54,389 bases of DNA from a virus. The notes under the pieces are model-generated. The model was not told where the DNA came from and did no database searches. It saw nothing but the letters and a program-made list of their open reading frames with translations. Shown piece by piece: positions 5,399 to 36,962 of this stretch. The stretch spans positions 1 to 54,389 of the IMG/VR virus record IMGVR_UViG_3300044623_001268. The stretch is one strand, 5' to 3'. The translations under genes and the position numbers were made by a program. The first letter of the stretch is position 1. Each line of letters opens with the position of its first letter.

Positions 5399-5423
5399 AT
5401 TATATAGTATTTGTTTGTGAGTA

Positions 5424-5455
5424 CAAATATAATAAACTTATTTCATTATTCCTAA
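5424..5455 (-). promoter_or_regulatory. Promoter for 5159 gene
   Basis: On the minus strand: TTAG, 20 nt, TATATTTG. Confidence 0.75.
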
Positions 5456-5509
5456 TAATATAGTAAAAAAGATTAAAATAAAAATAAATTAAAAATAATT
5501 GCAAATAAA

Positions 5510-5541
5510 TTAGGAATAACAAAATAGATTATATATCTTTG
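5510..5541 (+). promoter_or_regulatory. Promoter for 5572 gene
   Basis: TTAG, 20 nt, TATCTTTG, followed by a leader of four CAAA units. Confidence 0.8.
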
Positions 5542-5571
5542 TTTCACACAAACAAACAAACACTATATAAT

Positions 5572-6438
5572 ATGGGAACTTTAAAAACATTAGACCAATT
5601 GATTATCGAAAATCAATTATTAAGTAACAAAGAAATTGCTTTAAAATTAGGTACAAGTGCTCAAAAAATTTCGGCAAAAAGAACGTGGTTAATTCGTAAA
5701 GGTAAAATTGAAAAAGTTGGTACAAAAAAAGAACGTAAAGATAATCTTTTAAACAAACTTAATACGTTATCAACTAGTATTAAGATAAAGATAACTACAA
5801 ACACAACTACAAACACTTATACGAACCACAATGGTGAAAACAAAGAAGTTGCTCGTATTAAAATGAAAAACTATATGATTGATAGTTCAGTAATTGGTGA
5901 CGTTCCTTGTTTACCAAATGAAAATTGGACTATAGAACAAGAAGTTGCAAAAGTTTTGCCCGATATGAATTTTATAGGTGCAGAAATTAACAAAGATACT
6001 TTTGTTAAAATGAAAAAAAATCTTAAAAAAACCAATTTGAATGCAACAACACACTTTGGTAAAATTAGCGATTTAATCTATGGTAAAACTGAAAATTCAT
6101 ACGCACACTTGATTTTAGATTATTGTGGACATTTAGCGACATTTAGCAAAGAAATTGAATATGTTATCAATAATGACTTGTTAAAATTAAATGGAATAAT
6201 GGCTATTACTTTTGGTAAACCTTTACGTGGAAATGACAAACAAACACTTAAAATCAAAAATTTAGCACCTATCAATAATGAAGACACACGTTGTATAAGT
6301 GACAGAAGTATTGAAAATTACTTTGCTAAAATTACGGGGTGGAATTATGAAGTAAAAGAAATTTTTTACTATAGCGACAAAAAAGAAAACGGCAAAGGTT
6401 ATCCAATGACTTTGGTTATAATTCAAAGAGTAAAATAA
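5572..6438 (+). CDS. HTH protein with methyltransferase-like C-terminal domain
   Basis: 288 residues from the ATG after the CAAA leader; an upstream TTG at 5539 lies inside the -7 box and cannot be used. Residues about 14-40 look like a winged or simple helix-turn-helix (LSNKEIALKLGTSAQKISAKRTWLI). A polar Thr/Asn linker (65-90) follows. Residues 105-288 resemble a class I SAM-dependent methyltransferase fold: GAEIN (136-140) in the place of motif II and LILDYCG (180-186) in the place of motif IV, but the Gly-rich motif I is not evident. It may be a DNA-binding regulator or a DNA modifier. A bidirectional terminator follows. Confidence 0.6.
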   Translation: MGTLKTLDQLIIENQLLSNKEIALKLGTSAQKISAKRTWLIRKGKIEKVGTKKERKDNLLNKLNTLSTSIKIKITTNTTTNTYTNHNGENKEVARIKMKNYMIDSSVIGDVPCLPNENWTIEQEVAKVLPDMNFIGAEINKDTFVKMKKNLKKTNLNATTHFGKISDLIYGKTENSYAHLILDYCGHLATFSKEIEYVINNDLLKLNGIMAITFGKPLRGNDKQTLKIKNLAPINNEDTRCISDRSIENYFAKITGWNYEVKEIFYYSDKKENGKGYPMTLVIIQRVK

Positions 6439-6447
6439 AATAAAAAT

Positions 6448-6481
6448 AAATCGTAATTACTTTGGTAGTTACGATTTTTTT
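6448..6481. terminator. Bidirectional terminator
   Basis: AAATCGTAATTAC / GTAGTTACGATTT stem with T7; closes the 5572 gene and the opposing small RNA. Confidence 0.8.
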
Positions 6482-6510
6482 GCTATAGTGTTTTTTTTAT
6501 TTATATAGGT

Positions 6511-6566
6511 AGGTCGGAGTCTACTCTCTTACTTTTTAAGCAACCCGTATCGATATCAATCATCTA
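6511..6566 (-). ncRNA. Repeated small RNA, copy 1
   Basis: On the minus strand a promoter at 6572-6603 starts transcription near 6566. The RNA carries GGUUG ... AGAGAGUAGACUCC ... CGACC; GGUUG pairs with CGACC to close a stem, and a variable hairpin (CUU...AAG) precedes the invariant core at 6516-6529. No open frame of useful length. It should stop at the terminator at 6448. Confidence 0.65.
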
Positions 6567-6571
6567 CATAA

Positions 6572-6603
6572 CAAAGATAATAAATCTTTTTTAATCTACC
6601 AAA
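6572..6603 (-). promoter_or_regulatory. Promoter of small RNA copy 1
   Basis: On the minus strand: TTTG, 20 nt, TATCTTTG. Confidence 0.75.
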
Positions 6604-6643
6604 TTTTTTAACACTTTTTTTTATTATTTATTTTCATTAAAAA

Positions 6644-6675
6644 CTTGCACAATCAAAACATTATACTTATCTTTG
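6644..6675 (+). promoter_or_regulatory. Early promoter for 6696 gene
   Basis: CTTG, 20 nt, TATCTTTG; spacer identical to that of the promoter at 521. Confidence 0.8.
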
Positions 6676-6695
6676 TTAAAACAAAAACAAACACA

Positions 6696-6872
6696 ATGGG
6701 AAAGACTTTAAAAATTACTAGAGAACAAATTATGACTTTTGAACGTTCGGCACGTAGACGTGCGGATATTGAATGTGGAATTGATATATTCAAACATAAA
6801 GTACATAAAAGCGATAAAGATTATAATCGTAGAGAAAATAAAAAAATTGTTTGGAAAAATTTGGTAGATTGA
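6696..6872 (+). CDS. Small basic hypothetical protein
   Basis: 58 residues from ATG 6696 (upstream TTG at 6645 lies in the promoter). Strongly basic: MGKTLKITREQIMTFERSARRRADIE, then HKVHKSDKDYNRRENKK. The composition suits nucleic-acid binding, and an N-terminal helix is likely. The next promoter overlaps its last codons. Confidence 0.6.
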   Translation: MGKTLKITREQIMTFERSARRRADIECGIDIFKHKVHKSDKDYNRRENKKIVWKNLVD

Positions 6873-6891
6873 ATTATTATTCTTATCTTTG
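6860..6891 (+). promoter_or_regulatory. Early promoter for 6921 gene
   Basis: TTTG, 20 nt, TATCTTTG, with the -33 element inside the previous coding sequence. Confidence 0.8.
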
Positions 6892-6920
6892 TTAAACAAA
6901 CAAATTAAAACCTAGAAATT

Positions 6921-7094
6921 ATGTCAGTCGATTTAAAACAAATAAAAGCAAGACTTGAATATTTTAGAAGAGAAATTCAAGCAGAAGGAATTAGTTATGG
7001 TGAAATTTTAGAACTACAATTATTAGCAGAATACATTGATAAAGATGATGTGTTATTATTACAATGGGCTGGAATTGGTGAAGGACTAAATTAA
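6921..7094 (+). CDS. Small acidic helical protein, 57 aa
   Basis: MSVDLKQIKARLEYFRREIQ and onward; mostly helical and acidic, with a Leu-rich stretch (ILELQLLAEYI) around 29-39. Standard TAGAAATTATG start and own promoter. No relative recognised. Confidence 0.6.
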   Translation: MSVDLKQIKARLEYFRREIQAEGISYGEILELQLLAEYIDKDDVLLLQWAGIGEGLN

Positions 7095-7116
7095 TTTAAA
7101 AATAATTCTAAAAAGA

Positions 7117-7148
7117 TTTGCATAATCAAAAGATTATGCTTATCTTTG
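7117..7148 (+). promoter_or_regulatory. Palindromic early promoter
   Basis: TTTG, 20 nt, TATCTTTG; GCATAATC-aaaa-GATTATGC at 7120-7139. Confidence 0.85.
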
Positions 7149-7174
7149 TTTAACACAAACAAATATTAGAAATT

Positions 7175-7423
7175 ATGGCAAAGGAAATTTTTTTAAGAGA
7201 AAATGTATTGACTGATAACATTTTATTTATACCTAACAAAGGTAAAATATTCAAAGGTGGTTATGTTGCTATAATCAAAGAATATCAATTTCAAAATTCG
7301 TGGTCGGACAAAGAAATAGTAAAAAGATTTAGAAACGTAGATAGACTAAATACATATTTGGATAAACAATATCCCGAAGCAGATTGGATTGACTTTGAGG
7401 GAACTTGTTTAGAATTAATTTAA
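7175..7423 (+). CDS. Hypothetical early protein
   Basis: An 82-residue protein with a beta-rich N-terminal half (NILFIPNKGKIFKGGYVAII) and a helical C-terminal half ending TCLELI. Monocistronic. No domain recognised. Confidence 0.65.
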   Translation: MAKEIFLRENVLTDNILFIPNKGKIFKGGYVAIIKEYQFQNSWSDKEIVKRFRNVDRLNTYLDKQYPEADWIDFEGTCLELI

Positions 7424-7440
7424 AAATAATTGTAAAAAGA

Positions 7441-7472
7441 TTTGCATAATCGAAAGATTATGCTTATCTTTG
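7441..7472 (+). promoter_or_regulatory. Palindromic early promoter
   Basis: TTTG, 20 nt, TATCTTTG; perfect repeat at 7444-7463, identical to that at 2085. Confidence 0.85.
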
Positions 7473-7498
7473 TTTAAACAAATAAACACATAGAAATT

Positions 7499-7726
7499 AT
7501 GGCAAAGATTAATTTAGACAAACACATTTGGGAGGGTTGGACTGTTGGTGCATTTATCCAAGAATTAGAACCTACATTTGAAATGATTATGCGTGGGAAC
7601 TCGTGGCAGAAACCATTTGCAACAAAAGATGAATTAAAAGAGTGGTGCAAAGATAATCAACCATACTACAAAAAACATATTGCCGATGTATTTAATTATT
7701 TTTTACCAAAAGCAAAAATAAATTAA
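7499..7726 (+). CDS. Conserved small phage protein (IWEGWTVG family)
   Basis: A 75-residue protein resembling one found in many phages and some bacteria: HIWEGWTVGAFIQELEP near the start, then SWQKPF, ELKEWCKDNQPYYKKHI and a C-terminal YF. The conserved Trp/Tyr cluster suggests a compact helical fold. I know of no assigned function. Confidence 0.75.
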   Translation: MAKINLDKHIWEGWTVGAFIQELEPTFEMIMRGNSWQKPFATKDELKEWCKDNQPYYKKHIADVFNYFLPKAKIN

Positions 7727-7743
7727 AAATAATTACAAAAAGA

Positions 7744-7775
7744 TTTGCATAATCAAAAGATTATGCTTATCTTTG
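7744..7775 (+). promoter_or_regulatory. Palindromic early promoter
   Basis: TTTG, 20 nt, TATCTTTG; inverted repeat with AAAA loop at 7747-7766. Confidence 0.85.
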
Positions 7776-7801
7776 TTTCATACAAACAAACACTAGAAAT
7801 T

Positions 7802-8137
7802 ATGTCAGCAAAAAGATTAGCAGTATTAGAAAAAAGTTGTCAAAGAGAATTTGATGCAAATGAAACGATGCAATGGGTAAACCATAATATGTTATGGAGA
7901 ATGACGTGGGGTGCAAGAAACTTTACAGCATTTGACAAAAAAGCATTATTTTTTAATGTGTCTGGAAATAACCACAAAGGAATTGTTTTGATTACTTTGG
8001 GTTGGGACGATACGTATACTATTACTTTGTTATCAACACAATGGAATGTAAAACAAGTTATCGAAAATGTTTATTGTGATGATTTAGCAGAAACTATTGA
8101 TATCAAAGTTGAAAGAATTGCAGAATATAATAAATAA
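7802..8137 (+). CDS. Hypothetical early protein, 111 aa
   Basis: The start is ATG 7802 in the TAGAAATTATG context; the upstream TTG at 7745 is promoter sequence. It begins MSAKRLAVLEKSCQREFDAN and has a beta-rich middle (GIVLITLGWDDTYTITLL). No motif recognised. Confidence 0.65.
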   Translation: MSAKRLAVLEKSCQREFDANETMQWVNHNMLWRMTWGARNFTAFDKKALFFNVSGNNHKGIVLITLGWDDTYTITLLSTQWNVKQVIENVYCDDLAETIDIKVERIAEYNK

Positions 8138-8155
8138 AAAATAATTACAAAAAGA

Positions 8156-8187
8156 TTTGCATAATCAAAAGATTATGCTTATCTTTG
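8156..8187 (+). promoter_or_regulatory. Palindromic early promoter
   Basis: TTTG, 20 nt, TATCTTTG; inverted repeat at 8159-8178. Confidence 0.85.
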
Positions 8188-8226
8188 TAAGGTAAACAAA
8201 TACAAACAAACAAATACTTAGAAATT

Positions 8227-8415
8227 ATGAAAATTAGTCAGCACAATTGGGGATTTTGGTTCGTATCAACATTATTAGTAATTCTTATCGGAATGATGAT
8301 TGCAATGGTAGCCCAAACTGAAAAAGAATTAATTGTATCAAATATTATTCTTATTGTTGGAATGATATCAATGGTGCCTTGTTTATATGTTGGTACTAAA
8401 CCTACAGAAAATTAA
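8227..8415 (+). CDS. Small two-helix membrane protein
   Basis: A 62-residue protein with two membrane segments, residues about 10-29 and 36-56, separated by TEKEL. Similar in architecture to the 296 and 8957 products, but without visible sequence identity. Own promoter; unknown role, presumably in the host inner membrane. Confidence 0.65.
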   Translation: MKISQHNWGFWFVSTLLVILIGMMIAMVAQTEKELIVSNIILIVGMISMVPCLYVGTKPTEN

Positions 8416-8436
8416 TTAAAAATAATTGTAAAAAGA

Positions 8437-8468
8437 TTTGCATAATCAAAAGATTATGCTTATCTTTG
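8437..8468 (+). promoter_or_regulatory. Palindromic early promoter
   Basis: TTTG, 20 nt, TATCTTTG; inverted repeat at 8440-8459. Confidence 0.85.
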
Positions 8469-8497
8469 TAAGGTAAACAAATTAAAACAAAAAAATT

Positions 8498-8581
8498 ATG
8501 TACTCAAAAGAATTAGAATTAATAGCAATTCATTATGGAATTGATGGAGATGGAAACCCAATTATTAATCAAGAAAATTAA
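8498..8581 (+). CDS. Tiny hypothetical protein, 27 aa
   Basis: MYSKELELIAIHYGIDGDGN and a few more residues, in the AAATTATG start context behind a full promoter. The next frame starts 5 nt after its stop. Its size limits confidence, but the promoter and start context support it. Confidence 0.45.
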   Translation: MYSKELELIAIHYGIDGDGNPIINQEN

Positions 8582-8586
8582 AAGTT

Positions 8587-8703
8587 ATGAAGACTATTCA
8601 AAAATTTGAAAATATTATGGACAAAGTGTCCGAACCAATTACATACATTTGTTGTGTTTGTTTGATAGGTAGAGTTTTATTGTCTTTTATGTTTGGCATA
8701 TAA
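8587..8703 (+). CDS. Tiny membrane peptide, 38 aa
   Basis: A polar N-terminus (MKTIQKFENIMDKVSEP) followed by one hydrophobic segment (ITYICCVCLIGRVLLSFMF) with three cysteines. Start context AGTTATG. It is probably co-translated with the 27-residue frame and ends 8 nt before a terminator. Confidence 0.5.
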   Translation: MKTIQKFENIMDKVSEPITYICCVCLIGRVLLSFMFGI

Positions 8704-8711
8704 AACGAATT

Positions 8712-8738
8712 AAGTGGGAGTTGTGTCCCACTTTTTTT
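8712..8738. terminator. Bidirectional terminator
   Basis: AAGTGGGA / TCCCACTT stem followed by T7. Confidence 0.85.
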
Positions 8739-8762
8739 ATGCACCATATGGTGAAACGTATA

Positions 8763-8813
8763 GACGTGTCGGAGTCTACTCTCTCAAGATTTCTCTCGAC
8801 CCGTCCCTCTCGA
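8763..8813 (-). ncRNA. Repeated small RNA, copy 2
   Basis: Minus-strand RNA with the best closing stem of the family: GACG-g-GUCG pairs with CGAC-a-CGUC (8763-8771 with 8797-8805). The inner variable hairpin is AGA/UCU and the invariant AGAGAGUAGACUCC core is at 8771-8784. Promoter at 8819-8850. A 12-bp palindrome CACCATATGGTG follows, then the terminator at 8712. Confidence 0.7.
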
Positions 8814-8818
8814 CATAA

Positions 8819-8850
8819 CAAAGATAAGTAATTTATTTCAATCTACCAAA
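8819..8850 (-). promoter_or_regulatory. Promoter of small RNA copy 2
   Basis: On the minus strand: TTTG, 20 nt, TATCTTTG. Confidence 0.75.
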
Positions 8851-8900
8851 TAAAACAGCAATTATTTTTATTATTTATTTTCATTTATTTTCATTAAAAA

Positions 8901-8932
8901 CTTGCACAATCAAAACATTATGCTTATCTTTG
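8901..8932 (+). promoter_or_regulatory. Early promoter for 8957 gene
   Basis: CTTG, 20 nt, TATCTTTG; near-identical to the promoters at 521 and 6644. Confidence 0.8.
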
Positions 8933-8956
8933 TTAAAACAATTTAAAACAAACAAA

Positions 8957-9136
8957 ATGAAAAAATTAAACCTTATTGTAGCACTTATCGGACTTGTTGG
9001 ACAAGTATTAGGATTTGTAGGAATTTTTATTGCTGATAGTAACGACCAATTAATGTGTAGTCTATGGACATTTTTATTATTTGGTGGTATGGGTGCATTT
9101 GCATTGATAACAGATGTAAAAAAATCTACAAATTAA
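8957..9136 (+). CDS. Small two-helix membrane protein
   Basis: 59 residues from ATG 8957. Two hydrophobic segments (about 4-24 and 33-51), a short polar turn ADSNDQ, and a basic C-terminus (DVKKSTN). The upstream TTG at 8930 is within the -7 box. Unknown role. Confidence 0.65.
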   Translation: MKKLNLIVALIGLVGQVLGFVGIFIADSNDQLMCSLWTFLLFGGMGAFALITDVKKSTN

Positions 9137-9168
9137 TTTGGTAGATTGAAATATTATACTTATCTTTA
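9137..9168 (+). promoter_or_regulatory. Early promoter for 9194 gene
   Basis: TTTG, 20 nt, TATCTTTA; same spacer as the promoter at 1360. Confidence 0.8.
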
Positions 9169-9193
9169 CATAAACAAATAAACAATAGAAATT

Positions 9194-9814
9194 ATGGGAT
9201 ACACAACTGATTTTAGTGGACGTTTTGAATTGAACAAAGAATTAAGTCCAAAGATGGCTCAATACCTTAAACTATTCAACGAAACACGTAGAATGAAACG
9301 AAACACTGATGAAGTGTTTGGAGTACAAGGAGAATTTTTTGTATTTGGTGGTGGAGATTTTGGACAAGCAAACGAACCGAATATAATCGACCATAACGAA
9401 CCACCAACAACACAACCTAGTCTTTGGAATCAATGGACACCCAGTGATGACGGAATGGGGATTGAATGGGATTGTGGTGAGAAATTTTATAGTTATACTG
9501 AATGGTTAGTATATCTAATTCACAAAATACTTGCACCTAATGGTTATATCCTTAATGGAGTTGTCGAATATAGTGGTGAGGAAATGGGCGATGTTGGTGA
9601 AATAGTTGTTGTTGATAATAGAGTTTTTGTTAGAGAAAAATATCAAGATAGCGACAATGGAGAAATGACACCACAAAACGCAAGTAAATTTGGTAGAGTA
9701 AATGGGAACTTTGCAAATATCGAAGACTTTATGCGAACTGATATAGTTTTGATTTTAGATGATGAACTACAAAACAGATTTGATTTTGTGAACAAAAGAT
9801 TGTTAGAAAAATAA
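9194..9814 (+). CDS. Conserved MGYTTDFSG-family protein
   Basis: A 206-residue protein of a family I recall from many phages and bacteria. Landmarks: MGYTTDFSGRFELNKEL at the start, ETRRMKR (30-36), FGQANEPNIIDHNEPP (about 56-71), QPSLWNQWTPSDDG, GIEWDCGEKFYSYTEWLVYLI, and GYILNGVVEYSGEEMGD. Length is typical. No activity is known to me; the conserved Asp, Trp and Tyr residues suggest a ligand- or protein-binding role. Confidence 0.8.
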   Translation: MGYTTDFSGRFELNKELSPKMAQYLKLFNETRRMKRNTDEVFGVQGEFFVFGGGDFGQANEPNIIDHNEPPTTQPSLWNQWTPSDDGMGIEWDCGEKFYSYTEWLVYLIHKILAPNGYILNGVVEYSGEEMGDVGEIVVVDNRVFVREKYQDSDNGEMTPQNASKFGRVNGNFANIEDFMRTDIVLILDDELQNRFDFVNKRLLEK

Positions 9815-9819
9815 AAAAT

Positions 9820-9847
9820 GAAGTGGGAAATTACTCCCACTTTTTTT
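9820..9847. terminator. Bidirectional terminator
   Basis: AGTGGGA / TCCCACT stem followed by T7. Confidence 0.85.
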
Positions 9848-9871
9848 GTGAGTTATAAAAAAAAAATACAA

Positions 9872-9922
9872 CGTAGGTCGGAGTCTACTCTCTCGCTCTC
9901 GCAACCCGTATCCTTATTGGTA
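9872..9922 (-). ncRNA. Repeated small RNA, copy 3
   Basis: Minus-strand RNA: GGUUG pairs with CGACC (9902-9906 with 9876-9880), the inner variable hairpin is GC-GAGA-GC, and the invariant core is at 9880-9893. Promoter at 9928-9959. It faces the convergent 9194 gene and should end at the terminator at 9820. Confidence 0.7.
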
Positions 9923-9927
9923 CACTA

Positions 9928-9959
9928 CAAAGATAAGAAACTTATTTCGATATTCCTAA
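9928..9959 (-). promoter_or_regulatory. Promoter of small RNA copy 3
   Basis: On the minus strand: TTAG, 20 nt, TATCTTTG. Confidence 0.75.
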
Positions 9960-10004
9960 TTTATTTACAATTATTTTTAAAATAAAAAATGCTAACTATA
10001 GTAT

Positions 10005-10036
10005 GTTGTGGGAACAAAACTAAATGCTTATCTTTG
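10005..10036 (+). promoter_or_regulatory. Promoter for 10062 gene
   Basis: GTTG, 20 nt, TATCTTTG. Confidence 0.7.
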
Positions 10037-10061
10037 TTGTATAACTTTAAAACGATGTATT

Positions 10062-10340
10062 ATGAGCAGATTAATTGAAAGAGTATTAGAACAAATCAAA
10101 GCTGATTTATTTAATGGTGATGTTGAAGCAATAGAAGAACTATTAACCTTTGTACCAAAAGAAAACCTTATTGGGTATTTACCCGAAGAGGAATGGAAAC
10201 AATATGAGAATGATTATTGTTGTCAAAATTGTGGTGGTGGGTTTACACGTGATGAAATGGACTTTGATGTAAACGATGTTGATTTATGCAAAGATTGTAA
10301 TCATACAAGTTTTAACGATGCACCTTATGGTGATGAATAA
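10062..10340 (+). CDS. Small zinc-ribbon-like protein
   Basis: 92 residues from ATG 10062 (MSRLIERVLEQIK...); an upstream TTG is promoter sequence. The N-terminal half is helical and acidic (VEAIEELLTFVPKENLIGYLPEEEW). Residues about 53-80 carry two Cys pairs, CCQNC and LCKDC, which fit a zinc-binding knuckle. It could bind nucleic acid or protein. Monocistronic. Confidence 0.7.
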   Translation: MSRLIERVLEQIKADLFNGDVEAIEELLTFVPKENLIGYLPEEEWKQYENDYCCQNCGGGFTRDEMDFDVNDVDLCKDCNHTSFNDAPYGDE

Positions 10341-10356
10341 AATAATTGTAAATAAA

Positions 10357-10388
10357 TTTGGATATGTCAATTTAATATATTATCTTTG
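10357..10388 (+). promoter_or_regulatory. Promoter for 10419 gene
   Basis: TTTG, 20 nt, TATCTTTG. Confidence 0.75.
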
Positions 10389-10418
10389 ACTATATTAATT
10401 AATTAAAAACAATATACT

Positions 10419-10742
10419 ATGTCAAGCAAAAACTTAAACAACGATTTAGACCAATTAGAAACACAAGTTTACCACTACTTTAATGAGTTGTTGGAGAAAC
10501 AAGATGAAATAGTAATCTTTGATGAGTGTGATTTAGAACACGATACACCCGATGATTATTTAGAAATGCGTAATGATATTACGGGAAACGTGTTTGATGT
10601 CCACCCTTTGAAAGTAACCCAAAATGGAATACTTGTAATTGAAGCTGATGGTAGTTTTACAAGACACTTGATTAAGTTGCACGATTTATCAAGCACACAA
10701 GACAAAATTACCCTTGTAGGATTAATGGAAGATAATATGTAA
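10419..10742 (+). CDS. Acidic hypothetical protein, 107 aa
   Basis: A strongly acidic soluble protein (MSSKNLNNDLDQLETQVYHYF ... FDECDLEHDTPDDYLEMRND). No catalytic motif recognised. Own promoter; a hairpin-bearing promoter follows at 10758. Confidence 0.65.
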   Translation: MSSKNLNNDLDQLETQVYHYFNELLEKQDEIVIFDECDLEHDTPDDYLEMRNDITGNVFDVHPLKVTQNGILVIEADGSFTRHLIKLHDLSSTQDKITLVGLMEDNM

Positions 10743-10757
10743 ATAATTACAAAAAGA

Positions 10758-10789
10758 TTTGGAATATTGAAAAGTATTCCTTATCTTTG
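10758..10789 (+). promoter_or_regulatory. Early promoter with covarying hairpin
   Basis: TTTG, 20 nt, TATCTTTG; spacer arms GGAATA / TATTCC (10761-10780), a third stem sequence that still pairs. Confidence 0.8.
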
Positions 10790-10815
10790 TTTCACACAAA
10801 CAAACACTATATATT

Positions 10816-11037
10816 ATGGCGACTAAAATTAAAGAGGGAAGTTTAGTTTATTTTTACGATGACTCAACAAAACACCCATACCTTGTACACGAAGTATTTG
10901 GTAATAAAGTATCTTTAGGGTTAATGGAATATCCCGATACCGAACAAGATGACTATATTAATATACTTGATGTAATATTGTTTGAGAAATCTGAATTATT
11001 TGACGCAAAAAAAATAATTGAAAATTTATTAAATTAA
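10816..11037 (+). CDS. Small beta-rich hypothetical protein
   Basis: A 73-residue protein (MATKIKEGSLVYFYDDSTKHPYLVHEVFGNKVSLGL) whose first half suggests a small SH3-like beta barrel; this is only a composition-based impression. A helical C-terminus follows. Own promoter. Confidence 0.65.
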   Translation: MATKIKEGSLVYFYDDSTKHPYLVHEVFGNKVSLGLMEYPDTEQDDYINILDVILFEKSELFDAKKIIENLLN

Positions 11038-11048
11038 TTGCAAATAAA

Positions 11049-11080
11049 TTAGGAATATCAAAACATTATGCTTATCTTTG
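11049..11080 (+). promoter_or_regulatory. Early promoter for 11109 gene
   Basis: TTAG, 20 nt, TATCTTTG. Confidence 0.8.
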
Positions 11081-11108
11081 TTAAACAAACAATTAAACAC
11101 TAGAACTT

Positions 11109-11276
11109 ATGGACGCTCAAAATTTTTTCGCACAATTAATGTTGGAGGCAAAAACATTAGATATCAAAAGAGAACTAAACAAAGGTTTAGAAAAACCATT
11201 TGAAAAATTGGTAAAGATTATCGGTTTAGATGATGAAGGTTTTAAAATCTTTGCACCTAGTCTTTGTAATAATTAA
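11109..11276 (+). CDS. Small hypothetical protein, 55 aa
   Basis: MDAQNFFAQLMLEAKTLDIK and onward, helical with a basic middle. Starts in the AACTTATG context and is followed 17 nt later by a terminator. No relative recognised. Confidence 0.6.
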   Translation: MDAQNFFAQLMLEAKTLDIKRELNKGLEKPFEKLVKIIGLDDEGFKIFAPSLCNN

Positions 11277-11293
11277 CTCAAAAACACTAAATG

Positions 11294-11318
11294 AAACCTA
11301 TCGAAAGATAGGTTTTTT
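11294..11318. terminator. Bidirectional terminator
   Basis: AAACCTATC-gaaa-GATAGGTTT hairpin with T6. Confidence 0.85.
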
Positions 11319-11403
11319 GTGTGAACACTTTTGTGTACATCGACATACAAAATATATGCAGTATCAAAAATTTTGTTCAAACTAACAAATTTGAGATAAT
11401 TCT
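11319..11403. other. Intergenic, downstream part of small RNA copy 4
   Basis: No frame or clear structure; AT-rich. It would be the 3' part of the minus-strand copy 4 transcript if that runs to the terminator at 11294. Confidence 0.35.
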
Positions 11404-11474
11404 TGGTCGGAGTCTAGCAACGCAGAGGACATTGCACAACGGAGTCTACTCTCTCGCTCTCGCAACCTTTATGA
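11404..11474 (-). ncRNA. Repeated small RNA, copy 4 (expanded)
   Basis: Minus-strand RNA with the invariant core at 11441-11454 and GC-GAGA-GC inner hairpin. Unlike the others, 24 nt are inserted after the core, and a second UAGACUCCGACC (11405-11416) supplies the closing CGACC that pairs with GGUUG (11462-11466). The layout suggests a partial internal duplication. Promoter at 11480-11511. Confidence 0.65.
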
Positions 11475-11479
11475 TATAA

Positions 11480-11511
11480 CAAAGATAAGTAAAATAAAAT
11501 AAACCACCAAA
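11480..11511 (-). promoter_or_regulatory. Promoter of small RNA copy 4
   Basis: On the minus strand: TTTG, 20 nt, TATCTTTG. Confidence 0.75.
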
Positions 11512-11536
11512 TTAATGATGGTTTATTTTTTAATAT

Positions 11537-11833
11537 TTAATTGATGTCTATTAATTCTCCGTCCCATTCAGCACCATTCAAATACCAAATTCCTTTAGTT
11601 TGATTTATCCTAACATTAGGCAAGGCATTTAATCTTTCTTTGGTAGTTGCTGTTTCATAACCACAATTTGTAATTGAAAGTGTTTTTTCTGGGTCATTGT
11701 AACGATAAGCGATTGCATTACCAAATAATTTTAAGATAGTAACATTAGGTAGTACTTCTACTATTGTATTACTACTTTTGAAATTTTCAGCATTTAAAAA
11801 TTTCTCGATTGCATTTTCTGTAATTGTTCTCAT
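11537..11833 (-). CDS. Conserved phage/plasmid hypothetical (TTKERLNALP family)
   Basis: A 98-residue protein resembling small proteins common in phages and mobile elements: NTIVEVLPNVTILKLFGNAIAYRY in the first half, then ITNCGYETATTKERLNALPNV, then IWYLNGAEWDGE. The short beta-rich domain with the conserved TTKERLNALP turn has no function known to me. Minus-strand promoter at 11860 and the usual CAAACAAACACT leader. Confidence 0.75.
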   Translation of the reverse strand: MRTITENAIEKFLNAENFKSSNTIVEVLPNVTILKLFGNAIAYRYNDPEKTLSITNCGYETATTKERLNALPNVRINQTKGIWYLNGAEWDGELIDIN

Positions 11834-11859
11834 AATATATAGTGTTTGTTTGTGTTATA

Positions 11860-11891
11860 CAAAGATAGGTATTTTATTTCAATCTACCAAA
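11860..11891 (-). promoter_or_regulatory. Promoter for 11537 gene
   Basis: On the minus strand: TTTG, 20 nt, TATCTTTG. Confidence 0.8.
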
Positions 11892-11991
11892 TATTTTTAC
11901 ACTTTTTTTCATTTTCTTTATTAACAACAAATTGTTAATAACTTTCAAAACTTTTTGTAAAACAAGTCAATATTATGCTTATATTTGTATT
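11892..11991. other. Intergenic region before small RNA copy 5
   Basis: AT-rich; contains one TTGTTAATAACTTT motif (11929-11942) shared with the junction at 12.95 kb and a + promoter-like site (TTTTG at 11953, TATATTTG at 11980-11987; 22-nt spacing) for copy 5. Confidence 0.5.
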
Positions 11992-12046
11992 AGTTAATTA
12001 AACGGGTCGCTTTAAAAAGTGAGAGAGTAGACTCCAACACGTCCAT
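11992..12046 (+). ncRNA. Repeated small RNA, copy 5 (opposite strand)
   Basis: The only + strand copy. ACG-g-GUCG pairs imperfectly with CAAC-a-CGU; the inner hairpin is CUUU...AGUG and the core AGAGAGUAGACUCC is at 12022-12035. No clear terminator follows. Confidence 0.6.
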
Positions 12047-12141
12047 ACCTCAAATGAAATAATTTGCAAAGGTACGAAAAAAAACAATACAAATTATATT
12101 AAATAAAAAAAGTTATTAACATTTGAGTGTTGAAAACTAAA
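12047..12141. other. Intergenic region
   Basis: No gene. Holds a minus-strand TACCTTTG-like box (12067-12074) without a well-placed -33 element, and an AGTTATTAAC motif at 12110. Confidence 0.35.
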
Positions 12142-12173
12142 TTTGTATAATCGAATATTGTTCACTATATTTG
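12142..12173 (+). promoter_or_regulatory. Distal promoter for 12301 gene
   Basis: TTTG, 20 nt, TATATTTG; 127 nt before the start codon. Confidence 0.65.
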
Positions 12174-12231
12174 TACCAACAAAGAAACAATAATAAGAAT
12201 AAAAAATAAATTAAAAATAAATCAAAATAAA

Positions 12232-12263
12232 TTAGGAATATCAATATAAGTTTATTATCTTTG
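12232..12263 (+). promoter_or_regulatory. Proximal promoter for 12301 gene
   Basis: TTAG, 20 nt, TATCTTTG. Confidence 0.8.
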
Positions 12264-12300
12264 TACCATACAAACAAACATACACTAAAAAATAGAAATT

Positions 12301-12852
12301 ATGAAAGCAGTAAACGTAACAGAAAAAGAATTAACAGCGATTTTATTAGCAACTCCTAAATCAATCGGAAGTATAGCAAATTTAATGCAATGTACTAAAC
12401 CCGATACGCTAAAAAAAGATAGAGATACGAAAGAGCCATTTTCAAGCGAAATAAGAAAGGTTACTAGATTAAAAGTACTTTTGTCTACTGAATACGAACA
12501 AGGCGTTTTAAATGCCCTTAAAAAAGAAAACAAGGACGAAAGCGAATACATTAAAGGTCGTAATACTATGCCGATTGAATTTGAACAATCAAATAATGAA
12601 TTTTGTGGATTTTACAAAGGTCAAGCAGTTATTCAATATAGACCATTTGATAAAAGTTTTCCAAAAGTAAAATTTGTAATGAATGGTAAAATTACAGAAA
12701 AATCAAAATTACCAAATGTACTACCAACTGAAAACAAAGCAAAAAATCAAGGTAGTGAAAAAGAAATTCTTTGGAGGAAATTATATATTTCTAACATTAG
12801 AAAAATAAAAGTTAATGGAATACTTTACAAAAATATCGAATGTAAACTTTAA
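12301..12852 (+). CDS. Hypothetical early protein, 183 aa
   Basis: Begins MKAVNVTEKELTAILLATPK; the first ~80 residues look helical with a possible DNA-binding character (ELTAILLATPKSIGSIANLM resembles a helix-turn-helix start) and the rest is basic and beta-rich (AVIQYRPFDKSFPKVKFVMN). It is unusual in this arm for having two tandem promoters. It ends at a strong terminator and is the last + gene before the strand switch. No family recognised; a regulatory role is only a guess. Confidence 0.65.
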   Translation: MKAVNVTEKELTAILLATPKSIGSIANLMQCTKPDTLKKDRDTKEPFSSEIRKVTRLKVLLSTEYEQGVLNALKKENKDESEYIKGRNTMPIEFEQSNNEFCGFYKGQAVIQYRPFDKSFPKVKFVMNGKITEKSKLPNVLPTENKAKNQGSEKEILWRKLYISNIRKIKVNGILYKNIECKL

Positions 12853-12854
12853 AT

Positions 12855-12882
12855 AAAGATAGCCCGAAAGGGCTATTTTTTT
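12855..12882 (+). terminator. Intrinsic terminator
   Basis: ATAGCCC-gaaa-GGGCTAT with T7. Confidence 0.85.
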
Positions 12883-13107
12883 ATGCCTATTTTCTTATTT
12901 AGAATTAATATAAATAAACAAAAAATTAGGAATTGTAATAAAACAAATTTTGTTAATAACTTTTACATTTGTTAATAACTTTATTTGCATATATCATTTA
13001 TTTTACACTACATTAAATAAGACGTTTTAATGTACTTTCTTATTGATTGATACATTGATTCATACTGTAAAAGATAGTGCAGCAGATTAACCCCTGGCAC
13101 GTCCAGG

Positions 13108-26665: not shown

Positions 26666-28078
26666 ATGGAGAAAATAAACGTTAAAGATAGATTAACATA
26701 TTTGGCTGAAACATTTGATGTGTTTGAATGTAATGGTGAAGATAACTCTGTTGATAAAAAAATAAAATTATTGGCGAAAGAAGGTTATACACCTAAAGTG
26801 ATATCTTCTAGAACTGGTGTTGTCTTGGCTATTTTATCTGAAAAGGTAAATGAGAAAGAACGTATTTCACAAAATATTAGTGTTTGTTCCAGTGTTTTTG
26901 CTGATATGATTGCTGCTGACCCAACTGATAACAAAATGTATCTTCAATGGATGTTGAATTTATTTGTTCGTTTATTAAAAAATAAAGAGAAAGATGATAT
27001 TGAGATGGCAACTCGTTTGGTTGTTGAGGATTTACCTCAAGCCAATAAATATTTGACCGTTTTTGAAGATAATAAAAGAAAGAAGAAGTTTAAAGAATTA
27101 TGCAAAGGTAGTTATGTTTTAATGCATGTAAGTGACCCAACTGATATCAACCAATACAAATCATTGTCACAGTTGTTTGATGCTGTTGACCCTTTTATTG
27201 AGAAGGAACCAAGTGCTTTGGAAAGAACACTACAAAAGTTTGTAGATATAGGTCAAGCTGAAATTCCAGTTAGAGATAGAAAATTTACGTTATTTGTCCC
27301 TAAAACAACTGAAGCAAATGTTGCGTTTGAAGACTTTGCTAACTGGTGTACTGCTAGAAAGGGCAACGGTATGTTTAAAAGTTATACTGATGGACATAGA
27401 AAGCCGAATGGAGATAAGTCTGATATTTATATAATAATACCTAATTTATTTTTTGAAGGTAAGACGAAAGAATTGTTTCAGATTCACTTTGAAACGAATC
27501 AGTTAAAGGATAGACAGAACGGAAGTAACGTTAGCATATTTGAGAACGTATTATCTGAAAGCGAAGGTATCACCAATTTCTTTTACAAGGAGTTGATTGA
27601 TATGGCCAAAGGATTTAAAAAAGGAATAGAGAATAACAAATATTTAGATTATTTAATAAAATTTGGTTTTGCTGAAAGTTTATTTGAATTGATAGACGTA
27701 GAAACACCAACGATAAGATTTATGACAAGAGAGATACCAAAGATGCCAGATATTAGTAAGTTTAGTAAACTAGACCAACTAATTATTTGCAATGCAAAGA
27801 TGCATGAATTGCATCCTTCAATTGGTAAATTAACCAATTTAGAAATGTTGGTGTTGACTGAAAATAAAATAAAATCGTTACCAAAAGAGATTGGGTTACT
27901 TAAAAACCTAACGTTTTTGAATTTGATTGGTAATCCGATTCAAGAGATACCTAACGATATCACCTATTTGGATAAATCAAATGGGGGTTCGTTACATAGA
28001 ATTGCAGTGAAAGAAGAGGATATAGGTCCAGAAAATTATCAAAAATTAAAGAAGTTATTACCAACTGCTTTAATATAA
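26666..28078 (+). CDS. WC-motif protein with leucine-rich repeats
   Basis: 470 residues. The N-terminal 200 are helical. Residues about 205-290 carry FEDFANWCTARKGNGMFKSY (WC at 227-228), IYIIIPNLFF and FQIHFETNQLKDRQN, a layout like the HC/WC core of PcfJ-type phage proteins. Residues about 360-450 are leucine-rich repeats (LDQLIICNAKMHELHPSIGK, LTNLEMLVLTENKIKSLPKE, LKNLTFLNLIGNPIQEIPND). LRRs bind proteins, so it may recruit a host target. Host-type promoter and own terminator. Confidence 0.7.
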   Translation: MEKINVKDRLTYLAETFDVFECNGEDNSVDKKIKLLAKEGYTPKVISSRTGVVLAILSEKVNEKERISQNISVCSSVFADMIAADPTDNKMYLQWMLNLFVRLLKNKEKDDIEMATRLVVEDLPQANKYLTVFEDNKRKKKFKELCKGSYVLMHVSDPTDINQYKSLSQLFDAVDPFIEKEPSALERTLQKFVDIGQAEIPVRDRKFTLFVPKTTEANVAFEDFANWCTARKGNGMFKSYTDGHRKPNGDKSDIYIIIPNLFFEGKTKELFQIHFETNQLKDRQNGSNVSIFENVLSESEGITNFFYKELIDMAKGFKKGIENNKYLDYLIKFGFAESLFELIDVETPTIRFMTREIPKMPDISKFSKLDQLIICNAKMHELHPSIGKLTNLEMLVLTENKIKSLPKEIGLLKNLTFLNLIGNPIQEIPNDITYLDKSNGGSLHRIAVKEEDIGPENYQKLKKLLPTALI

Positions 28079-35005: not shown

Positions 35006-35473
35006 ATGATTTTAAAAAGAAAAGAAAAAGATGGTGTAATCAAGGCGATTTATTCTTCATCAAACATTTGTGCTTCAGTGTACAACAACATTACAAATGA
35101 ATTATCAGTTATTTTCAACCATGGTGGTCAGTACAAATATATTGATGTTTCAAAAACTGATTACATGCGTTTTGAAACTGCTGATAGTCAAGGTTCTGTA
35201 TTGAATACCAACATTAAAAAATATACTAGCAGTAAATTGGATAATGTTGATACAACTGAAATTTTAAAAGAAGTTGAAGAATTGAAAGTTGAAACTGAAT
35301 CTGATATCACACCAGATGCTGCAACAAAAGAAATGTTACAAACTATGAGTGATATCATCAGTAACTATCTTAAAAACGGAAACGTAACAGCTGGTTCATT
35401 GACTGGATTGAAAGGGAAGATTTCAACATTCGAAAAAGTAACAACTAAAAAACCAGAAATTGTAAATGAATAA
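35006..35473 (+). CDS. KTSC-domain protein
   Basis: 155 residues. Residues about 14-75 fit the KTSC pattern: SSNICASVYNNITNELSVIFNHGGQYKYIDVSKTDYMRFETADSQGSVLNTNIKKY. KTSC domains are small beta domains found in phage and lysyl-tRNA-synthetase-related proteins. The C-terminal half is a charged helical extension. Its last 8 nt overlap the thymidylate synthase start, so the two are coupled. Confidence 0.8.
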   Translation: MILKRKEKDGVIKAIYSSSNICASVYNNITNELSVIFNHGGQYKYIDVSKTDYMRFETADSQGSVLNTNIKKYTSSKLDNVDTTEILKEVEELKVETESDITPDAATKEMLQTMSDIISNYLKNGNVTAGSLTGLKGKISTFEKVTTKKPEIVNE

Positions 35474-36962
35474 TTTAGATAAAACTTATCAAGATTTATT
35501 AAAAGACATTTTAGAAAATGGTACTCGCAAAGGTGATAGAACTGGAACGGGTACCATTTCTGTCTTTGGGAGACAAATTCGTCATAAAATGAGTGATGGT
35601 TTTCCACTTCTGACCACAAAGAAGATGTATATGAAAGGTATTATAACCGAGTTAATTTGGTTTTTAAGAGGTGATACAAACATTAAATTCCTTGTTGATA
35701 ATGATTGTCATATTTGGGATGGTGATGCTTACCAATCATATTGTAAACGATATTGGGAATTAGGTGAGATAGCTAAAATAGAATATGGTAGTTCATATTA
35801 TAATCACGAAACTAATGAGTATGAGTTTGAAACATATTCAAAAGAAGAATTCGTTAACTATATCAAAACAAATGATGCGTTTGCTAAAAAGTGGGGTGAG
35901 TTAGGTCCAATTTATGGTAAGCAATGGAGAAATTGGGGTGGATGGAAAGATGTTAAACAAAGAGGTTTTTTACACAAAACTGATAATGGTTGGGCTGTTA
36001 AATGGAGCGATTTACATTCATTTGCTAATGGTACTGAGTGGTTAATAACTCCAATACAAGATTCTGACCAATCTCTTTACAGTGATGAGGATGAAGGTAA
36101 AAAAGTTTACTATAAAAATATAACACTTGGTTACAATGAAAAATCTTTTTGTCCAATTCAAGTTGCTAAAGTAATTGATGATAAGTTTGACAAATATGTT
36201 GGTGGTATAGACCAAATCCAAAACCTAATCAACGACATTAAAACAAATCCAGACTCAAGACGATTAATGGTAAATGCTTGGAATGTTGGAGAATTGGATT
36301 CAATGACACTTCCCCCTTGTCATTATGGATTTCAAGTTTATACAAGAGAGTTGAGTCAAGAAGAAAGATGGCGTATCCGTTATAATTATCATCCAAAAGA
36401 TAAACAATTTCCGTGGGATAGAATGGCATTACCATCACACGATTTTTTAGATAAATTTAATATTCCACGTAGAGCAATCTCATTAATGTGGAATCAACGA
36501 AGTGTAGACACATTCTTAGGTTTACCATTTAATATTGCTTCTTATGGTTTATTACTTGAGATTGTTGGTAAAATGGTTAATATGGTTCCAGATGAATTGA
36601 TTGGTAACTTGGGTGATGTTCACTTGTATTCAAATCACGTTGACCAAGCATTGGAACAAATTGGTAGATACTTAGAAGTTGATGAGCGAGTTTGTATGTG
36701 TTATGAGAACCCTAGTTTGGATTTAACTAAAATACAAGAAGGGATGAGTGATTCTGAATTTACAAAGGTATGTGATGAGTTTGGTATTCCAACACGAACT
36801 AGAGAACCATTTGACTTACCTAAATTAGGTTTCAATAAATCTTCTGGATTCTTTAGAGAATTAGGTGATGATTTGAGTTTATTAAATCATTTAGATATAT
36901 CTGATTTTATGGTGGAAAATTATCAATCACACTCAACTATAAAAGCACAATTATCAAATTAA
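35466..36962 (+). CDS. thyA: Thymidylate synthase with large insertions
   Basis: 498 residues against about 264 usual. ThyA landmarks: RKGDRTGTGT (21-30, dUMP phosphate Arg), TKKMYMKGIITELIWFLRGDTN, IWDGDAY, GPIYGKQWRNWG, DSRRLMVNAWN (263-273), catalytic Cys285 in LPPCHYGFQ, QRSVDTFLGLPFNIASYGLLL, and GDVHLYSNH. Extra sequence lies after the catalytic-core GKQWRNWG (about 160-245), after QVYTRELSQ (295-335), and in the long C-terminal third. It should make dTMP from dUMP with methylene-tetrahydrofolate. Confidence 0.95.
   Translation: MNNLDKTYQDLLKDILENGTRKGDRTGTGTISVFGRQIRHKMSDGFPLLTTKKMYMKGIITELIWFLRGDTNIKFLVDNDCHIWDGDAYQSYCKRYWELGEIAKIEYGSSYYNHETNEYEFETYSKEEFVNYIKTNDAFAKKWGELGPIYGKQWRNWGGWKDVKQRGFLHKTDNGWAVKWSDLHSFANGTEWLITPIQDSDQSLYSDEDEGKKVYYKNITLGYNEKSFCPIQVAKVIDDKFDKYVGGIDQIQNLINDIKTNPDSRRLMVNAWNVGELDSMTLPPCHYGFQVYTRELSQEERWRIRYNYHPKDKQFPWDRMALPSHDFLDKFNIPRRAISLMWNQRSVDTFLGLPFNIASYGLLLEIVGKMVNMVPDELIGNLGDVHLYSNHVDQALEQIGRYLEVDERVCMCYENPSLDLTKIQEGMSDSEFTKVCDEFGIPTRTREPFDLPKLGFNKSSGFFRELGDDLSLLNHLDISDFMVENYQSHSTIKAQLSN

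Follow-up and report, generated by a model that had tools for sequence, protein, structure and literature searches.

A family of small structured RNAs behind predicted promoters of their own in distantly related phages

Five short intergenic elements in the 54,389-nucleotide (nt) viral DNA IMGVR_UViG_3300044623_001268 (the whole stretch analysed here, referred to as the window) share a 14-nt core, which raises the question of what these elements are and why a phage would carry them several times. The first-pass annotation took the four minus-strand elements and the single plus-strand element for small structured RNAs, and all five cores are found at the sites it gave. The exact core AGAGAGTAGACTCC occurs five times in the window, while none is expected by chance. 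With up to three mismatches there are six matches; shuffled sequences give 1.5 on average and never six. Our analysis supports the view that the elements belong to a previously uncatalogued family of phage-encoded small structured RNAs, each copy with its own predicted promoter.

Relatives were collected from viral contigs. A scan with the 14-mer alone returned 75 loci, about one third of them with the whole layout and the others coincidental. Further members were gained by a second scan, in which the −7 promoter box was joined to a 12-mer of the core, and both scans combined give 77 distinct members after one chance locus was taken out. Two longer exact patterns led to more phages, including contigs of 299 and 340 kb. 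A covariance model (R1), built from an alignment (A2) of 23 equal-length members, found 121 matches in 47 loci, with E-values that are rough owing to a shortened calibration. Such a search over phage sequences had been proposed as a check in the first pass. Taken together, the pattern scans and covariance models place the element in about 40 phage records. Members were collected with the core as a requirement, and its conservation follows in part from this selection; the covariance search also recovered members with altered cores. A scan with AGGGTAGACTCC gave 80 loci, just two of which were accepted by the model.

The family follows one order: a Bacteroidota promoter, an optional 5′ hairpin, the motif A-N-G-K-G, a hairpin (P2), one base, the core, and the 3′ strand of a closing stem (P1). 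The core is the strand joining P2 to P1 and reads (A/G)AGAGUAGACUCC-R-A across the family, with GUAGACUCC as its near-invariant part. An invariant 14-nt core, as first described, is exact for the five copies in the window, but over the family its first four bases vary (AGAG, AGAC, AGGG and AAAG, with a GAAG start also seen). Because of this variation a GAG/CUC pairing inside the core is not conserved, and it was rejected as a conserved hairpin since AGAC, AAAG and AGCG variants break it. The loops of P2 are free to vary and include GAGA, GACAA, UAACAA and UACG.

The closing stem and the inner hairpin that changes its sequence and still pairs were first noticed in the window alone, and both are now backed by 87 distinct family sequences. 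In a hand-anchored alignment of the 77 members, with GKG and the core as anchors, the closing pair of P2 is C-G in 40 members and U-A in 36, with a single mismatch. The second pair is C-G in 35, U-A in 25, U-G in five and A-U in one, and the A two bases 5′ of GKG is present in all 77. In a model-fitted alignment of 89 matches, 86.1% of the cells are paired, and the closing pair of P2 is C-G in 41 and U-A in 40 of the 81 scored rows with no mismatch. The covariation score is 0.410, compared with 0.215 ± 0.013 after shuffling (reached by none of 500 shuffles) and 0.03–0.13 when the pairing partners are slid. This alignment leans toward structure because it was fitted to structure; the hand-anchored counts are independent of the covariance model and agree with it (76 of 77 paired). 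A first MAFFT alignment (A1), in which the GGG anchors were shifted, was excluded from the pairing counts. Compensatory changes thus exceed the controls, as in a structured RNA with conserved secondary structure.

The helices drift while the unpaired core stays fixed, and therefore the element is best explained as an RNA and not as a protein gene or the remnant of a transposon. In particular, members have no common reading frame and protein coding was rejected: ATG frames pass through the core in 13 of the 77 members, in two different frames. No conserved frame crosses the core, in line with the earlier statement that no copy holds an open frame. The first-pass annotation also considered that the copies could be remnants of one transposable unit whose pairing is not kept in related phages. 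Pairing is kept there, and such compensation argues against a relic. A transposable unit was rejected also since the window copies are alike only over 26–33 nt centred on the core and over the promoter regions, without defined unit ends.

All five copies in the window have a −7 box, TATCTTTG in four of them and TATATTTG in the plus copy, and the predicted +1 lies 5 nt past the box. Over the family this position usually falls inside the optional 5′ hairpin. A TAnnTTTR box is present upstream in 82 of 88 model hits, the six exceptions having near-boxes, and in 36 of 39 hits from a scan that set no promoter condition (background 22% in both cases). The proposed distance of 6–10 nt between promoter and element proved too short, as the conserved motif starts about 11–24 nt past the box. 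A bidirectional terminator, claimed for each minus copy, is clear beside copy 3 (9820-9843) but weaker for the others. Of 76 members, 22 have a U-run no more than 22 nt past the core, and the number rises to 39 when 120 nt are allowed. Predicted transcripts are about 55–130 nt long, with a median of 70 nt where a U-run was found. The downstream neighbour is convergent in 44 of the 70 members having a known neighbour; therefore most copies are not leaders and the RNA would act in trans. A cis leader, a riboswitch and a put-type antiterminator were rejected on the same count, and at L008:5482 the next same-strand gene has a promoter of its own. The copies are placed between small genes, and no protein family is found near all of them, the commonest being present at six loci.

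The window copies are collected in Table 1. ACGGG precedes P2, except in copy 4, which has AAAGG. The 3′ end reads GACC... or RACACGUC and forms the 3′ strand of P1. Copy 4 owes its greater length to an inserted hairpin, beside which the 3′ half of the core (UAGACUCC) is repeated. Similar insertions are found at L022:303, L087:2916 and L094:3628, with a diverged form at L081:6462. In copy 4 and the first three of these loci the core is followed by GUUGU or GUUAU, the hairpin, a second UAGACUCC and the closure of P1. The inserted hairpin is GCAAUG...CGUUGC or GCAACUA...UAGUUGC, so that its sequence changes and its pairing is kept.

Table 1. Copies of the small RNA and other features in the window
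Feature	Position (strand)	−7 box	Predicted +1	Elements and remarks	Model R1
Copy 1	6501..6579 (-)	TATCTTTG 6579-6572	~6567	ACGGG and P2 hairpin; core 6529-6516; P1 3′ strand GACCUACC 6515-6508	47.8 bits, E 6e-17
Copy 2	8756..8826 (-)	TATCTTTG 8826-8819	~8814	closing stem GACGGGU / ACACGUC; P2 UCGAGAGAAAUCUUGA; core 8784-8771 (-)	45.3 bits, E 8e-16
Copy 3	9865..9935 (-)	TATCTTTG 9935-9928	~9923	ACGGG; P2 UUGCGAGAGCGA; core 9893-9880 (-); then GACCUAC and U-run	44.1 bits, E 3e-15
Copy 4	11405..11487 (-)	TATCTTTG 11487-11480		P2 UUGCGAGAGCGA; core 11454-11441; inserted hairpin GUUGUGCAAUGUCCUCUGCGUUGC 11440-11417; repeated core half UAGACUCC 11416-11409; GACC 11408-11405	19.6 bits, E 2e-4
Copy 5	11980..12050 (+)	TATATTTG 11980-11987	~11992	ACGGG; P2 UCGCUUUAAAAAGUGA; core 12022-12035 (+); then AACACGUCCAUAC	44.8 bits, E 1e-15
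Intrinsic terminator, bidirectional	9820..9843			between 206-aa early gene (9194-9814) and copy 3; terminator-like on both strands	
Palindrome-bearing early promoters	7120-7139, 7444-7463, 7747-7766, 8159-8178, 8440-8459				
Small early protein	11537-11833			Kyanoviridae Gp96 family (PF23790)	
Leucine-rich repeat protein	26666-28078			470 aa	
Thymidylate synthase frame	35466-36962			498 aa	

The carriers are phages of 77 kb to 635 kb. A similarity search of GenBank phages gave the 634,780-base huge phage LR745206.1 as one carrier. The same search gave Tenacibaculum phage Larrie (ON950054.1), whose four copies include a convergent pair. In Cellulophaga phage phiST two matches are firm and one is marginal; both phages are classed in Cbastvirus. 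The convergent copies are 14 nt apart in Larrie (L156:2459-2580) and about 30 nt apart in a further pair at L104:7802-7948. Three records (G005, G007 and G025) have 13 model hits each, G008 has nine, G004 eight and the window five. These copy numbers are lower bounds because most records are metagenomic fragments. The terminase of the window belongs to a large-subunit family common to T4-like phages, for example Flavobacterium phage immuto and cyanophages. Its identity to the terminases of other carriers is 89% (a 206-kb phage), 83% (233 kb), 69% (362 kb), 42% (199 kb) and 28% (the 635-kb phage), and some carriers have no clear match. Judged by its terminase identities to larger phages, the window is most likely a fragment of a T4-like jumbo phage. 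The family thus appears to cross distant phage lineages that share the host phylum Bacteroidota, with hosts known for Larrie and phiST only. Model R2 gave no match in phage immuto, Tenacibaculum phage PTm1, Elizabethkingia phage TCUEAP1, the crAss-like cr112_1, phi14:2, phi19:1, LR756502 or LR756508. Its marginal matches in pT24 and phi40:1 are probably due to chance.

Downstream of the phiST copies (L163, L166 and L168) lies a second conserved stretch (GCACCCTC...CCTTCGG). Read on the other strand (GAGGGUGC...), it resembles the core and has a −7-like box upstream in two of three cases, and it is possibly a diverged convergent sister RNA.

Is the RNA known from elsewhere? With Rfam 15, the whole window gives only tRNA at the gathering threshold, and in the region 5400-13000, searched at E up to 10, nothing reaches its own gathering score. 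In the literature searched, no paper gives the core sequence for an RNA of this kind. Combined with the covariation and the frequent promoters, these results bear out the first-pass suggestion of an undescribed family with its own promoters, and from the sequences it appears to be a new one. A 13-mer of the core occurs in only two of 198 Bacteroidia genomes, once each, in unrelated contexts and not in arrays, by which a host gene family was rejected. The only structured match in the genome_contigs set, L114, is a 6.7-kb contig binned in a Bacteroidales metagenome-assembled genome. This contig is evidently phage, with early genes in common with the window.

What could the RNA do in the infected cell? 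We put first, with a probability of roughly 40%, the reading that it is a trans-acting RNA of high dosage, which would work via its exposed core as a decoy or ligand of a host protein found throughout Bacteroidota. Such RNAs would be phage-borne, independently transcribed and active in trans, and would present the near-invariant single strand between P2 and P1. The copies would be made together early in infection and reach a high dose. Their fixed core and shape would form a binding surface for a host protein or ribonucleoprotein (RNP) found across the phylum, with a host RNA-binding regulator or a defence component as candidate partner. The RNA would titrate or redirect this partner, the decoy step being the weakest link. 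The many copies, together with a surface that is exposed and does not vary, speak for stoichiometric binding of a common host factor. A target in the host and not in the virion is suggested because the terminases of the carriers range from 89% to 28% identity or have no clear match, with Larrie and phiST in addition. It is suggested also because the core is found in so few Bacteroidia genomes and no protein family lies near all copies. A narrower version, possible though doubtful, is a device for counter-defence or takeover: in unrelated phages, and in up to a dozen or more copies, the junction strand would capture a host protein for RNA binding or defence that occurs throughout the phylum.

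Mimics of type III antitoxin RNAs (ToxI) in phages are cited in PMC10651486 (its reference 18). The likeness would lie in the mode of action, a host protein being neutralised by a decoy RNA of the phage. ToxI RNAs are in general built from pseudoknot repeats in tandem next to a toxin gene, whereas the present units are single, and no tandem arrangement of whole units was found. No toxin gene was recognised, with no toxin match in Pfam, among the neighbouring open reading frames examined, a subset of all neighbours. A similar build is seen in Yfr1 and Yfr2-5 of cyanobacteria, small RNAs with an ultraconserved unpaired stretch between helices, Yfr2-5 being multicopy; they differ in sequence and host phylum, and their home is bacterial chromosomes. 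Several points weigh against the decoy. The exposed invariant core could equally well be a seed for base pairing or a binding site for a protein, and the multicopy FopS small RNAs (sRNAs) of Bacteroides, with promoters of their own, can act by base pairing (PMC11697453). Furthermore, the core is unusually complementary to 16S ribosomal RNA (rRNA) in hosts whose helix 42 reads GGAGUC (0–1 of 100 shuffles).

If base pairing were the mode of action, the core would be the seed of a trans-acting sRNA on one or several host messenger RNAs and alter their translation, as in FopS. We regard this as rather unlikely. FopS is a paralogous, chromosomal sRNA family of Bacteroides with 12–15 copies per genome; it has a 5′ single-stranded seed (R1 of FopS) and a terminator hairpin, is reported as deposited in Rfam, and its sequence is reported in one Caudovirales phage too (PMC11697453). 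Both families are found in Bacteroidota in many intergenic copies behind canonical promoters, and both have a highly conserved stretch that is unpaired. Unlike FopS, however, the present family is phage-restricted, has a P1/P2 junction in place of a 5′ seed and terminator, has no Rfam match, and carries its conserved stretch between P2 and P1 and not at the 5′ end. The multicopy presence on Bacteroidaceae chromosomes that marks FopS was not found, given the two of 198 Bacteroidia genomes with the 13-mer and the phage nature of L114. FopS is thus the nearest analogue in habit, and it differs in home and architecture. Complements of the core (7- and 8-mers) are not enriched in the carrier phages, where all counts are under the permutation means; this could mean that self-targeting is avoided, but the lack of enrichment also counts against a seed. 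The 13-mer has no conserved perfect complement in the 198 Bacteroidia genomes, and a single seed would have to suit targets across a wide host range.

Less probable still is a role in an RNP encoded by the phage, with the RNA as its cofactor or guide scaffold. An invariant core and a conserved shape are expected of an RNP RNA, but the absence of a gene family near all copies speaks against it. Known guide systems do not resemble this scatter of solitary, separately promoted copies, and no variable, guide-like segment stands at a fixed place.

The complementarity to 16S rRNA could also be taken at face value, the core pairing with or mimicking helix 42 (UYGGAGUCUGCAACUC) and so perturbing 30S assembly or recruiting a ribosomal factor. 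With the 16S rRNA of G030 the core can form 11 contiguous pairs plus GAG/CUC, at an energy matched by 0–1 of 100 shuffled cores, and both bases found at the variable R position are able to pair. However, helix 42 varies in Bacteroidia while the CUCC of the core is constant: about one third of the sampled 16S sequences read GGAGUC and the others GAGGUC, GAAGUC or GGGGUC. No excess of complementarity is found with a 16S of the GAGGUC type (11–21 of 100 shuffles) or with 23S rRNA (32–55 of 100), and phages depend on host ribosomes. We therefore consider a ribosomal target improbable.

Two further explanations have very little probability. An RNA anti-CRISPR (Racr) would, like the present RNA, be a solitary phage-encoded small RNA directly behind its promoter, as in solitary repeat units (PMC10651486), but Racrs mimic a whole host CRISPR repeat, whereas here only a 14-nt junction strand is conserved, up to 13 divergent copies occur per phage, and the core shows no array-like or repeat-like occurrence in the 198 Bacteroidia genomes, a sample without the CRISPR arrays of the true hosts. 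The remains of a mobile unit, or sites that work at the DNA level (as operators or in recombination or replication), in either case with no RNA function, would fit the multiple copies, the nearly palindromic core centre GAGTnnACTC and the recurrent hairpin insertion, but not the compensatory changes in P2 across 87 distinct sequences, the position just 3′ of a promoter on the transcribed strand, or helices that differ between the copies of one phage.

Other features of the window and of the carriers deserve mention. Five early-gene promoters of the window contain a palindrome, GCATAATC-NNNN-GATTATGC, between −33 and −7, which is absent from the small-RNA promoters; it may serve as an operator and set two classes of expression apart. 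The small early protein of the PF23790 family adjoins copies 4 and 5, and its relatives are found near copies in L008, L014, L074 and L102. The 470-amino-acid (aa) phage protein has leucine-rich repeats at its C-terminus. In the thymidylate synthase frame, the domain covers residues 6–402 against 225 profile positions, and this excess of the domain span over the profile length indicates about 170 inserted residues, possibly an intein or a homing insertion. In a 99.6-kb phage (L142, G003:C1:57000-62000) the large terminase lies in a 1500-aa frame, with a long stretch between its two parts that is possibly an intein.

To our knowledge, phage small RNAs are few and mostly single-copy. The covariance model enables the annotation of other phage genomes, and with two cultured carriers, Larrie and phiST, the function of the RNA can be tested now. 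A folded RNA kept in unrelated phages in up to 13 separately promoted copies argues that selection is strong and that the carriers have a host target in common. Should the RNA be a decoy, it would point to an unnamed host factor for RNA binding or defence that is present throughout the phylum. If it serves counter-defence, it would be an RNA counterpart of protein inhibitors, one that matches no described RNA decoy.

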